From Rickettsiales bacterium (GTDB taxonomy: Bacteria > Pseudomonadota > Alphaproteobacteria > Rickettsiales > UBA3002), in assembly GCA_028281385.1 (NCBI GenBank), contig JANQJY010000077.1:1-57319 (forward strand): a stretch of 57,319 nucleotides of DNA, in the 5' to 3' direction. Shown here piece after piece: positions 26,387 to 40,710 of the stretch; position 1 is the stretch's first letter, and the number at the start of each line of letters is the position of its first letter. Both the position numbers and the translations under genes were made by a program. The notes beneath the pieces are model-generated. The model worked only from the letters and a program-made list of their open reading frames with translations. It had not been told where the DNA came from and did not search any database.

Positions 26387-26480
26387 TTAATAAATCGTTA
26401 ACGAAACTTAAGTTTTTTTGTTGTTTTTCAATGTTTTTTGCCGTTATTGTAACAAAACCTTAACATTTCTCACCTATGCT
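26387..26480 (+). promoter_or_regulatory. CtrA-like boxes and putative promoter of the giant ORF
   Basis: TTAA-TAAATCG-TTAAC (26387-26402), an exact TTAA-N7-TTAAC; GTAA-CAAAACC-TTAAC (26449-26464) followed by ATTTCTCACCTATGCT. Confidence 0.5.
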
Positions 26481-26533
26481 TGCAGAGTGGTGGTGTATCT
26501 GCCACGACGATATTGTATTTGAGGTATGTATTT

Positions 26534-29500
26534 GTGGCGATAGGTGACGACAGAGAAACAGACAAAGGACGGCTCTATCCGTTAACGGGTGGGGTAGACG
26601 GGTTTGACCTTAGCCGCTATGGCCCGGGTGGGGCTATTCGCGACCTGCAACATGGTAGCTTAGGCGTGCCTGCTGAAGGGCTGATTGCTCGGATTGTTGA
26701 ACAAGAAGTTGCAAAAGCATTGGCGGCAGAGCGTGAGAATGCTGTTGGAGAAGCCTCGCGTAATGATGCGCTTCGGGAGCAAGTGTTTGGTGGGATTAGA
26801 AGAGAGTTGCAGCCATTATTCTCTGTAAAAGATGACGCAGGAGAAGACGGGGAGAAAGCCGAAGAGAATATTAGAGCAGAACTGAAAAAGGTTGTGGATA
26901 CTCTGCAAGAGAAAATTCAGTATGTGAAATCGCAAATGGAGAGAAATCCCCCGCTCACGCATGAATTGACAGGTGTGCTTGAGGAGTTGGAGGATCTTAA
27001 ATCGACCATTGAGAATAGCATGGAACAAATTATTCATCAGGTTAAGAATGGACATTACCCAAGCGTTGAAGCAGCCATCTCAGCTTATAGCGCGTCGGTT
27101 CAGACCGCGGTTCAGTCGGCGATTTCCTACGCTTCTACCGAGGTGGGTGTGGCACTGGGTGAATATAGCGCTGAGAAGCTTGAGGAAGTCCTGACCTCTT
27201 CTGAGGCACTGCCGGGCCGGTCATTTGGTAACACCATCGCCCGCGAGGATAATCACCGGCATGTGATGCATGCGATCGATAACTGGATGCGTAGAGGGGA
27301 TCAACAGAGTGCCGATAAATTCCTTGGACGATTCTACGACGATGATTCTACGACAGTAGGACAACGCGATAAGGTATTTGAACGGGCAGCAGATAAGGAT
27401 AAAACGCCGATCGATCCATTCCATAGCTGGCACGCAGCTATCAATAACACTAATGAGAAAAGCTGGAATGCGCATGTTAAATATGAAACTGAGGAAGGTA
27501 ATGTAGAGGTTATTAGAGATAATTACCTTCGATTGGTAGACCTGAAAGAATCAGGATTGACTCCGGAGAAAGCCAAAGAGCGGGTTGATGTTTTTGACGG
27601 ACGCATGAAGCGTTACGAGCAGGGAGATGTAAAGGCGGCTATCAAGCTCAATGATAGAATTATCACGCCTGATATAGTGCATAACGGAGCGCTCAACATC
27701 TATAAATTTAAAGGTCGTGAACGTGGTGATGAGCATGTGAGTAATTGGAGTAAAGTAGAGCTTCAGGGAGCTGTGGAGAAAGGGCTTATTACGCAAGAGC
27801 AGGCTGATAAATACCGTGAGGCGATAGCTCGAATAAAAGAACTTAGCCGTGATGGCAAAGGGGCTGCGACGTCAGAAGATGCAGCGGAAATTCGCAGGAT
27901 ACGGCAGAGTGATGATTTCAAGGCGGTTCAAGAAGCCCAGGATCGGAACCCAAGTGGCAATGATGGTAAAAATGCCCAAGGACGCCTTGCGGCGGTATTT
28001 ATTGATGGTGGAATGGATCCGGATAAAGCTTGGGAGCTTGCTAAGGCTATGCCGCGATCTCAAGTTATGGAAGAACTGCTCAAACGAGGAAAAGGTGTTG
28101 AGTCTAGGATGTTGAATTTAGGCGATGAAAAGGAAGTTGAGGCAGCGCAGACTAGGCGGGAACAAGGCCAGGCAATATTGGGTGAGGTATTGTCGCCGGA
28201 CGGAGAATATAGCGATCTTGGTCGATTATATAAGGACTATGCACAGGCTAGTCCTGGCTATCAAAAAGAAGTGGGCGAGACCGCATCGTTACGCCTGAAA
28301 GGCGTTGGCATTGATCCGGCGATTCTGCAACAGCTGGCAAACGATCCGAAAAAATCACCCATGACAGCAGAAAGCATAGAGGCAGGCAGGAAGCGTTACG
28401 ATCAGTTGCAAAAGATGATTGATATTGGTGGCAAACTGACTCCAGAACAAGAAAAAGAGTACGCAAGGCTTACCCAGCAATCTGTGGCGATGGATGTCAT
28501 GCGCAATAGCGTCCTGAACCACAACGGAGATGTGGCCAGGATGATTCAGGAAATGCATGCCACTCTTCCGCCGGAGGAACGTGCATCGTATGATGTAAAG
28601 AAACTTCAGACACAGGTAGATAAATTATTGAAAGAGTCACCTGCCATAAAAACGATGATAGAGCAGGAACTGGCGACGAGAAACGAGTTCAGGGAGATGA
28701 TTGCGAATGATGGGAAGGCAACGCTTGCTGCTCTCAGACATAATTCTGACCTTCGTGGGAAATATGGTTTAACTGCAGCGCAATTAGATGCGCTGGAAAA
28801 AGCGCATGCGCAAGGAATGACGGGACAGGAACTTGCTGACTATATGTATTGGGAAGTGAGAAATGATGTCAATACACAAAACCGTCGGGTCTTAGAGGAG
28901 CTCCAGGAAGCGAGTGCAGGTGATAAGGCAACCAGTGAGATAGGTACGAAAGTCGGTAATACAGTCGAGGGTATTGTCGGTAAAGATATGGCAGATACAT
29001 TACGTGGTTCCTGGGCAGGGGATTATTATTATTCGTATCGCTATACCTCGATAAAACGGGAATTGGAAAATCCGGATCTGACTGCAGATCAGCGTCAGAA
29101 ACTGGAAGCCGGGATGGAGCTCATTAAGACGCGCGCTCAGGCTAAGGGAGCAGAAGTCAGCGAGTTGGGCAGCTTTACGTACGGCACGGTTGGTGCATTC
29201 GTTGCCGGTGCCAAAAAAGCGGCTGATTGGTGGGGTGGAGATAAAGAAAAAACGGCAGGCAAAGACGGAGATAGAAAGCTTGGCGAGGCAGCGCAAGCAC
29301 TGAAACAGGCGCAGGCAGAGAAGCAGAAAGCAATGGGAGAACTTTTTAATGCAGGTAATGATTACAGCTTACGTGAGGCAGCACTTCAGCGTCTGGAGAA
29401 AGCGAATCAACAAATTGCAGAATTATCGCAGGATACCTCGCCCACGGCCATTGCAGATGTAACCCCCACGGTGTCGGCAACGGCACAGCCAGGCAGCCAG

Positions 29501-29902
29501 GCAGTGGAGAAAACACCTGAGCAGGAAAAGGCAGAGAAAGCCGTTGCTCAAGCGAGAACACCAAAAGAAAAAGCGGAAGCTGAAAAAGCGGCAAAAGCGG
29601 CGGCCGGGAAGGTAGTGGCGGATGCAGGAGAAGCAACGAAAGAGACAACGCCAGACGACGAACCAGCCGCGAAAAAAGGTGATGGTAAGAAAGGTGAACC
29701 GGCTGCTAAGGCGAAAGAAGGTAAAGATAAAAAAGGCGATGGTAAAGAGACAAAAGTAGCAGATGCGGCACAAGAAGCAGGCAAGAAAGCAAAAGAAGCA
29801 GGCGCTGAAGGTGGTGAAAAAGCGGATGCCGGCGAAGAAAAAGCAGCGCCACCACCAAAAGAACCCAAGCCCAATGATGAGGAGAAGGCACCCAGCAAGT
29901 AA
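26534..29902 (+). CDS. Large cysteine-free coiled-coil/low-complexity protein of unknown function (GTG start)
   Basis: Continuous 1123-codon frame from GTG 26534, preceded by GAGG (26521-26524); A/K/E/P-rich tail (EKAEKAVAQARTPKEKAEAEKAAKAAAGK...PKPNDEEKAPSK); no Cys seen on reading the translation. Confidence 0.8.
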   Translation: MAIGDDRETDKGRLYPLTGGVDGFDLSRYGPGGAIRDLQHGSLGVPAEGLIARIVEQEVAKALAAERENAVGEASRNDALREQVFGGIRRELQPLFSVKDDAGEDGEKAEENIRAELKKVVDTLQEKIQYVKSQMERNPPLTHELTGVLEELEDLKSTIENSMEQIIHQVKNGHYPSVEAAISAYSASVQTAVQSAISYASTEVGVALGEYSAEKLEEVLTSSEALPGRSFGNTIAREDNHRHVMHAIDNWMRRGDQQSADKFLGRFYDDDSTTVGQRDKVFERAADKDKTPIDPFHSWHAAINNTNEKSWNAHVKYETEEGNVEVIRDNYLRLVDLKESGLTPEKAKERVDVFDGRMKRYEQGDVKAAIKLNDRIITPDIVHNGALNIYKFKGRERGDEHVSNWSKVELQGAVEKGLITQEQADKYREAIARIKELSRDGKGAATSEDAAEIRRIRQSDDFKAVQEAQDRNPSGNDGKNAQGRLAAVFIDGGMDPDKAWELAKAMPRSQVMEELLKRGKGVESRMLNLGDEKEVEAAQTRREQGQAILGEVLSPDGEYSDLGRLYKDYAQASPGYQKEVGETASLRLKGVGIDPAILQQLANDPKKSPMTAESIEAGRKRYDQLQKMIDIGGKLTPEQEKEYARLTQQSVAMDVMRNSVLNHNGDVARMIQEMHATLPPEERASYDVKKLQTQVDKLLKESPAIKTMIEQELATRNEFREMIANDGKATLAALRHNSDLRGKYGLTAAQLDALEKAHAQGMTGQELADYMYWEVRNDVNTQNRRVLEELQEASAGDKATSEIGTKVGNTVEGIVGKDMADTLRGSWAGDYYYSYRYTSIKRELENPDLTADQRQKLEAGMELIKTRAQAKGAEVSELGSFTYGTVGAFVAGAKKAADWWGGDKEKTAGKDGDRKLGEAAQALKQAQAEKQKAMGELFNAGNDYSLREAALQRLEKANQQIAELSQDTSPTAIADVTPTVSATAQPGSQAVEKTPEQEKAEKAVAQARTPKEKAEAEKAAKAAAGKVVADAGEATKETTPDDEPAAKKGDGKKGEPAAKAKEGKDKKGDGKETKVADAAQEAGKKAKEAGAEGGEKADAGEEKAAPPPKEPKPNDEEKAPSK

Positions 29903-29947: not shown

Positions 29948-30649
29948 ATGACCATGACCTTACAGCAAGACGGTGCGAGCGAGATTGTCAAACATGTCGA
30001 CCTTGCAGTGCCGGGAGGGAATCATCACAAGGTGCTGATGCATAGCTGCTGCGCACCCTGTGCCGGTGAACTGATGGAACAGATGCTCGCCAACGGTATC
30101 GATCTGACGATCTTTTTTTACAATCCCAATATTCATCCGCTCAAGGAATATACCATCCGCAAGGAAGAGAATATCCGCTTTGCCGAGAAAATGGGCATTC
30201 CTTTTATCGATGCCGATTATGATGTGCAGCACTGGTTTGCCCGTGCTAAAGGCATGGAGCATGAGCCCGAGCGCGGGGTGCGTTGTACCATGTGTTTTGA
30301 TATGCGCTTTGAACGTACTGCGCTGTATGCACATGAGCATGGCTTCCCGGTGATTACTTCATCATTGGGAATTTCGCGCTGGAAGAATATGGAGCAGATT
30401 AATGATTGCGGCGTGCGGGCGGCATCGTATTATGACGGTGTCGACTACTGGACCTATAACTGGCGCAAGCAGGGCGGTGGTGCGCGCATGTATGAGATTG
30501 CCAAGCGCGAAGCCTTTTATGCCCAGCAATATTGCGGATGCATTTATTCACTGCGTGACAGCAATACGTGGCGCGAATCGCAGGGCCGCGAAAAAATTGC
30601 TATCGGCGAAACCTGGTATGAGCAGAAGTTGAAAGATGCGGCGGCCTAG
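29948..30649 (+). CDS. queH: Epoxyqueuosine reductase QueH (DUF208)
   Basis: [18 protein letters not shown]...[18 protein letters not shown]...[34 protein letters not shown]...YCGCIYSL. Confidence 0.93.
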
Positions 30650-35296: not shown

Positions 35297-35310
35297 AATT
35301 CGAGCAAACC

Positions 35311-35340
35311 TTAATAAAATTGTAACATTTCTCTTTTATG
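35311..35340 (+). promoter_or_regulatory. CtrA-like box plus TATGCT promoter shared with the giant ORF
   Basis: TTAA-TAAAATT-GTAAC (35311-35326) followed by ATTTCTCTTTTATGCT; GTAACATTTCTCTTTTATGCT matches TTAACATTTCTCACCTATGCT at 26460 in 17/21 positions. Confidence 0.45.
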
Positions 35341-35361
35341 CTGAAAGGTAAGGAAAAATTT

Positions 35362-35862
35362 ATGGCGACGAATCCAAAAGAGATATCTGAACACAGCGTT
35401 AGTGGTCTGCCGAAAGAAGTAGAAGGGGCTGTTTCACGAATTGTGGCAAACATGGTGGCATCTGGCATGTCGCGTGAGGAAATTTCGCAGGCGGTTATGC
35501 AGGCCGTGGGTGGTAGTGTACCCCATTTGGATATTTCCCAGCTGGAACAGGAAATTCTGGCGGAGGCGGATAAGGTATATGAATCCAATGCGCCGATACA
35601 GGCCTTAGGTAGTGCTTTGGCGGGATTAAGTGATGCGGTATCCGATCTGTCGGACGCTATTTCCCTTGATTCGCTTGGCAAACTGGACACTATGTCACCT
35701 GGTGCTAAGCATGAAAGCCGGGAAGTAGGCGGAGACCTTGTCAAAGCAGGTGCAGCCTTTGCCGGCTTGTCTGATCTGAAAGAGCAACAAGAGCGCGGAC
35801 CTGATCGCACGCCTGCTCACACATTACCAGACAGAAGTGCTGGTATAAATCTGAATGCATAG
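35362..35862 (+). CDS. Hypothetical protein
   Basis: MATNPKEISEHSVSGLPKEVEGAVSRIVANMVASGMSREEISQAVMQAVGG; AAGGTAAGGAAA upstream as a ribosome-binding site. Confidence 0.65.
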   Translation: MATNPKEISEHSVSGLPKEVEGAVSRIVANMVASGMSREEISQAVMQAVGGSVPHLDISQLEQEILAEADKVYESNAPIQALGSALAGLSDAVSDLSDAISLDSLGKLDTMSPGAKHESREVGGDLVKAGAAFAGLSDLKEQQERGPDRTPAHTLPDRSAGINLNA

Positions 35863-40037: not shown

Positions 40038-40137
40038 CGGGCAACGGACAACCGATTTATCCTCAACCATCCCGGTTTTCATGAAATTGTCATAAAGCTG
40101 TCATCTGAATTTCCTGCCTTTTCGCTATTCTGAAGGG

Positions 40138-40710
40138 GTGAGTGAGGAAAAATACAGTTTTCATAAGCCGCATATCGACCATGCAACGCAAATTGTCGAA
40201 GTGCCTATTGATGGCACGCCCGACGAACAGACGCGTTTGGCTGTCAGAAAGATCAATCAGGCCTTTATTGGCGCAAAACTGAGTTATGATGAACTGATTG
40301 AATCGATGCAGCGCGAGCCGCTGGCAGCAGCCATAAAGACAGCGCCGAAAATGCCGCATCCGTTTCATCCGGATTCGGGACAGGAAAGATATAATAGTTG
40401 GCAATGGTTTCAGGATTATGTCGGCAATTATGTGCTCTATGCGCATTCGGGCTTTCCGGATCTGATGCTGGCGAAAATGGCGCCGCAGATTTCTGAGCGT
40501 ATTAAATCCCGCAAGGAGGAATTTGATGCGGTGGAAACTTTGTTGAATGATGCGGCTACCCGCTGTGAAAGCGATGTCTGCAGACAGACGGTCAGGCAGG
40601 GAAAAACCAAACTGAAAGCGTTTCGCACCCAGGTGGCGGTGCTGGAGCGTACGCTGGATACTGTATCCGTCCCTGTGGCAGAAGAGCAAAACGAACGGCT
40701 TGACGCATGA
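40138..40710 (+). CDS. Hypothetical protein (GTG start)
   Basis: MSEEKYSFHKPHIDHATQIVEVPIDGTPDEQTRLAVRKINQAF; preferred over the overlapping antisense ORF. Confidence 0.55.
   Translation: MSEEKYSFHKPHIDHATQIVEVPIDGTPDEQTRLAVRKINQAFIGAKLSYDELIESMQREPLAAAIKTAPKMPHPFHPDSGQERYNSWQWFQDYVGNYVLYAHSGFPDLMLAKMAPQISERIKSRKEEFDAVETLLNDAATRCESDVCRQTVRQGKTKLKAFRTQVAVLERTLDTVSVPVAEEQNERLDA

Follow-up and report, generated by a model that had tools for sequence, protein, structure and literature searches.

We analyzed a 57,319-nucleotide stretch of DNA from a Rickettsiales bacterium (GenBank assembly GCA_028281385.1, contig JANQJY010000077.1), called the window below, and within it a very long gene, here termed X, that occupies positions 26534 to 29902 of the forward strand. 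X encodes a cysteine-free orphan protein of 1122 amino acids (aa) and, as we hold with slightly better than even confidence, would belong to a co-regulated regulon of the rvh type IV secretion machine and its effectors, most likely as a translocated substrate. The host is probably a free-living relative of Rickettsia. Basal, apparently extracellular Rickettsiales have been described as having rvh but almost no recognisable effectors (Schon et al., PMC9352585). In one family of basal, rvh-bearing Rickettsiales, a gene upstream of queH keeps its position while its sequence evolves very fast, and X would be its representative in the window.

A conserved slot upstream of queH holds divergent, cysteine-poor orphans

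Members of the family were recognised through queH and include Alphaproteobacteria bacterium UBA3002, UBA6178, UBA6189 and several genomes named Rickettsiales bacterium. In each of the 10 other family genomes whose DNA before queH could be read, queH is immediately preceded, in the same orientation, by a long Ala-rich orphan of 422 to 1229 aa, two of these slot genes (L056 and L063) having a 5' end that is cut or doubtful. In three genomes a second orphan stands in tandem upstream of the slot gene. The queH loci outside the family had no such long orphan before queH. In the window, queH (29948 to 30649, forward strand; Pfam QueH) is probably carried on one transcript with X. A reading made from the window's sequence alone (the sequence-only reading) had placed the gene between comEC and queH, which is correct; a linkage of the slot to comEC was discarded, since relatives carry different genes after comEC and only queH is a conserved neighbour.

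Comparison of the slot proteins among themselves by blastp found almost nothing beyond EF-hand-like C-termini in four of them (L058, L059, L061, and L063, each ending in an EF-hand pair). X does not have this module, and no match to it was found in the window's genome. N-terminal homology among the slot proteins looked suggestive by eye but aligned poorly, and is not claimed. The slot orphans are mostly poor in cysteine, with 10 Cys in X and the slot proteins pooled against 84 expected, and X itself has none against 11.8 expected from the neighbouring genes (Poisson P 8e-6). It is extremely improbable that the slot was filled by unrelated orphans through chance and that X is a neutral or spurious reading frame. 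Such a view would fit the absence of detectable mutual homology between most slot proteins, but chance occupancy is refuted by the likeness of place, strand, composition, and promoter in 10/10 genomes, and an open frame of 1122 codons with a ribosome site would not survive by chance.

The coding sequence of X comprises 1123 codons including the stop, the number that the sequence-only reading had given as the protein length. The longest possible frame begins at a TTG at 26480 (1140 aa); because this codon overlaps the predicted -10 element (TATGCT, 26475 to 26480), the GTG at 26534, preceded at 8 nucleotides (nt) by the Shine-Dalgarno sequence GAGGT (26521 to 26525, forward strand), is the likely start. 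The protein is rich in Ala (12.5%), Glu (10.4%), and Lys (8.8%), as had been noted, while Gln, which had been listed with them, is unremarkable at 5.4%. The Lys/Ala/Pro-rich tail described from the sequence is present as a low-complexity Ala/Lys/Glu/Pro segment (29430 to 29899, forward strand). No transmembrane segment or signal peptide was found (Kyte-Doolittle, 19-residue window; best value 1.3, located before the likely start). A single-sequence AlphaFold2 model consisted of helices only, at a mean predicted local distance difference test (pLDDT) score of 48.6, so that the suggested coiled-coil nature is only partly borne out, by a model of low confidence. The best-modelled part comprises N-terminal helices at residues 106 to 198 (26849 to 27127, forward strand), where pLDDT is mostly 65 to 82 and drops to 44 at the end of the block.

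X had no relative in Pfam, NCBIfam, PHROG, or PDB and no sequence homolog in 56 relatives, a species-level genome collection, or viral contigs, and it is the sole protein known from its genus. Weak matches to X among 344 genomes of the order (best E 2.5e-5) were short pieces of 21 to 37% identity and were not accepted as homologs; the one at L003 lies in a frame that resembles, by eye, a VirB6/TrbL-like membrane protein. Matches of X to Pfam Prominin and EzrA and to PADLOC RT_UG23 were far under cut-off or marginal and were likewise set aside.

Two promoter boxes are conserved at the slot

By sequence comparison, the slot proteins have diverged beyond recognition and their promoters have not. 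Upstream of X, an exact TTAA-N7-TTAAC (TTAATAAATCGTTAAC, 26387 to 26402, forward strand) had been reported as a CtrA-like promoter element, and we found it to be the only TTAA-N7-TTAA in the 57 kb. As this pattern arises at least once in 36 of 100 shuffled windows, the box of X alone is not significant; it becomes so because it is conserved in relatives. A CtrA box was present at 8/9 slots compared to 10/309 upstream regions of other genes (p 1.6e-10), and the window's genome encodes a CtrA equivalog (NF045991, 412.5 bits; cut-off 350). The predicted CtrA-type control of X thus has support both in the persistence of the box across genera and in the CtrA gene of the genome.

What had been taken for a near match to this motif is better read as a PHO-type direct repeat, TTGTAAC-AAAA-CCTTAAC (26447 to 26464, forward strand), that is, an OmpR-family response-regulator box detected with the same matrix as at rvh promoters. 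The predicted -10 lies 10 nt past the repeat, at a position common to the relatives, and the repeat would occupy the -35 position. Across the slot promoters the repeat takes the form TGTCAT-N4-YTGTCAT, followed by a -10 after about 10 nt. With a 34-position matrix made from sites outside the slots, which replaced a first, partly post hoc pattern, the repeat was found at 7/9 slots and 5/309 other genes (p 4.5e-10), and repeat and CtrA box together at 6/9 slots compared to none of the 309 others. The site at X, scored with a matrix built without it, reached 13.6 to 13.7 bits, the fourth best in the whole window. These promoter counts omit L056, which is cut by a contig end, and L063, which has an odd GC-rich upstream region and is possibly chimeric.

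The repeat precedes rvh genes and a set of orphans

VirB4 was detected in 14/14 family genomes and at two or more places in 10/14, which is the rvh arrangement. The window's genome (2.15 Mb, 120 contigs) has two VirB4 loci, L203 and L204, in which virB2, virB3, and two copies of virB4 were confirmed by Pfam. Searching this genome for the repeat gave 11 matches compared to 0 for the reversed pattern, and a stricter form gave 63 compared to 0 in the 14 genomes. In the window's genome the repeat lies before virB3-virB4 at L203 and, at L204, before virB2 and virB4. In G006 it fronts virB2-virB4-virB6-virB8-9-10-11-D4 (L202), in G007 virB2 and virB4 (L200) as well as virB3-virB4 (L201), and at L240, in another family, two genes that look by eye like virB2. 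At L200 and L204, as at X, a CtrA-type box stands just upstream of the repeat. The same response-regulator box thus precedes both machine genes and X, the site at X being weak. Among the non-virB genes behind the repeat, 26/28 have no Pfam family, while 9/10 random neighbours have one. Across the order, the repeat was found mainly in families with larger genomes, with no match in the big families f10, f12, f15, f16, and f20. Together, these results suggested that the rvh machine and its substrates would be activated jointly by a response regulator of the OmpR family, with the PhoB ortholog as the likeliest one, and that CtrA may tie this programme to the cell cycle.

Two further putative members of the regulon lie on the forward strand of the window. 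The first (35309 to 35862) consists of a box at 35309 to 35342 (19.3 bits) and an orphan coding sequence at 35362 to 35862 (166 aa, 0 Cys, no Pfam family) located before gyrA. In G005, gyrA is adjoined by a Cys-free orphan of similar size (L158, 2243 to 2767), which forms a second conserved slot with the window's gene. The other (40087 to 40710) has a box at 40087 to 40120 (21.2 bits), with an overlapping match at 40076, in front of an orphan coding sequence at 40138 to 40710 (190 aa, no Pfam family); three staggered copies of the half-site precede this gene. Elsewhere in the genome, on contig C46, the repeat precedes the gene of another giant protein that lacks Cys (L208, 823 to 4167; 1114 aa). 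Its box is the strongest of all, at 41 bits, and a CtrA box lies immediately ahead of the start. This protein and X showed no similarity in sequence.

Several other loci deserve mention. An EF-hand protein, L160, is among the genes behind the repeat. L157, L158, L159, and L160 hold large Cys-poor proteins of 768 to 1589 aa with unrelated N-termini and a common C-terminal part made of a hydrophobic glycine-rich stretch and EF-hand pairs, and they look like a polymorphic, modular protein family; the protein at L157 has a glutamine-synthetase-like catalytic domain. The most conserved non-virB targets are proteins with the small DUF2610 domain (L173 and L179), which stand behind the box and are 92% identical across two genera. 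In another family, a 157-aa PG_binding_1 protein behind the box (L238, 211 to 684) is a candidate antibacterial effector; this type of peptidoglycan-binding domain has been discussed for effectors of bacteria-killing type IV secretion systems (PMC9352585). On contig C62 of G003 (L206), several near-identical prepilin-like genes flank virB8-virB11.

The repeat is not found before pstS

The PHO-box form of the repeat, together with a PhoB ortholog encoded in the window's genome (TIGR02154 equivalog, 343.8 bits; cut-off 296.2) among six OmpR-type regulators, could mean that the box is an ordinary PHO box and that X serves the response to phosphate starvation and has nothing particular to do with secretion. 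However, the repeat preceded none of the 10 pstS genes of the family: 9/10 loci had no site above 3 bits, and at the tenth the repeat precedes the neighbouring gene and not pstS. Moreover, no pstS was detectable in the window's genome or in G003, which is 96% complete and has 10 boxes. A classical PHO regulon was rejected on the pstS genes, and we regard this account of X as very improbable.

The simplest inference is that PhoB, as the putative binder of the repeat, would have been rewired to rvh, although it is possible that another OmpR-type regulator binds the repeat, and possible too that the rvh and orphan set is itself under phosphate control. In its fuller form, this would mean that in basal Rickettsiales, which seem to be free-living, a PHO-type response-regulator box was rewired away from phosphate uptake to serve rvh and numerous orphan substrates, the slot of X holding rapidly diversifying giant effectors; we put this somewhat short of an even chance.

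Discussion

Under the reading that we favor, X would be co-expressed with the rvh machine and moved through it into a target cell. The suggestion of an exported effector, made from the sequence alone, thereby gains indirect support from a second promoter element, common to rvh operons, that it had not seen, while a surface or cytoskeletal role found none. As for conservation in relatives, it holds for the slot and its promoter and not for the protein sequence. No described effector or effector domain homologous to X was found in Pfam, NCBIfam, or PDB, and X is a candidate through its regulation only. No immunity gene was evident next to X, and this slightly favors either a target other than bacteria or a role that is not toxic.

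Several points weigh against this reading. Co-regulation is no proof of secretion, and that X is translocated is something we only infer. No shared C-terminal signal was found, the C-terminal charge of the box proteins being no different from background (p 0.14). The repeat of X is weak, at 13.6 bits compared to mostly 25 to 41 at virB promoters, and it is missing at 2/9 slots, one of which has it before the tandem orphan upstream. Since the slot relatives share ancestry, the promoter p-values overstate independence, and the family genomes are metagenome assemblies.

X might instead stay in the cytoplasm as a scaffold or polarity protein, within a developmental programme under CtrA/PhoB control (that of a motile cell, for example, or of one that attaches) and with rvh simply expressed alongside. 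The helical, extended protein with no signal peptide or membrane segment, the CtrA box, and the single conserved slot, which hints at a housekeeping-like gene, would all suit such a role. However, divergence between genera as extreme as this is unusual for scaffolds, which keep their interaction sites; X and the slot proteins are depleted in Cys; and several other long Cys-free genes look, by eye, extracytoplasmic (PpiD-like). We therefore consider a scaffold unlikely.

X could also be exported by another route, through type I secretion or the flagellar type III apparatus, or it could serve the rvh machine as an accessory component, and would then not be a translocated effector. The absence of both Cys and a signal peptide typifies type I and flagellar substrates, and four of the slot relatives have Ca-binding repeats resembling EF-hands at their C-terminal end. 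A component of the machine should keep a conserved sequence, though, the genes adjoining the slot included none for type I secretion or flagella, and the repeat turned up before rvh genes and orphans (type I and flagellar promoters were not examined systematically). This explanation appears to us quite unlikely.

As a translocated rvh substrate, X would have parallels in known systems. In Legionella, the response regulators PmrA and CpxR control the Icm/Dot system together with its effectors, and the shared boxes have served to predict effectors (PMC2701608); here too an OmpR-family box is common to secretion genes and many fast-evolving genes, in this case candidate substrates. The differences are that the system is rvh (P-type), in a different order, that the repeat is PHO-type with CtrA added, and that translocation is presumed. 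The machine is the same as in other Rickettsiales rvh systems (PMC9352585, PMC11077975) and occurs in all 14 family genomes, whereas X resembles none of the described rvh effectors. In Ehrlichia and relatives, virB is regulated by the small helix-turn-helix proteins EcxR/ErxR (PMC5780451), in contrast to the OmpR-type box seen here. Like the PHO regulon, the promoters have 7-nt units, a 4-nt gap, and a -10 some 10 nt further on, and the genome encodes a PhoB equivalog; unlike it, pstS lacks the repeat and the targets are rvh genes and orphans. A precedent for phosphate signalling reaching type IV secretion in an alphaproteobacterium is Agrobacterium virG, reportedly induced by phosphate starvation (Winans 1990, cited in PMC4086400); there it is the regulator gene that responds, whereas here the repeat fronts the virB genes and orphans themselves.

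For non-parasitic basal Rickettsiales, the promoter code common to rvh and the orphans yields a list of candidate rvh cargo and a handle on how the host-invasion machinery was regulated before parasitism. If the rewired-box reading is true, it would reveal rvh cargo that predates the parasitism of the order.
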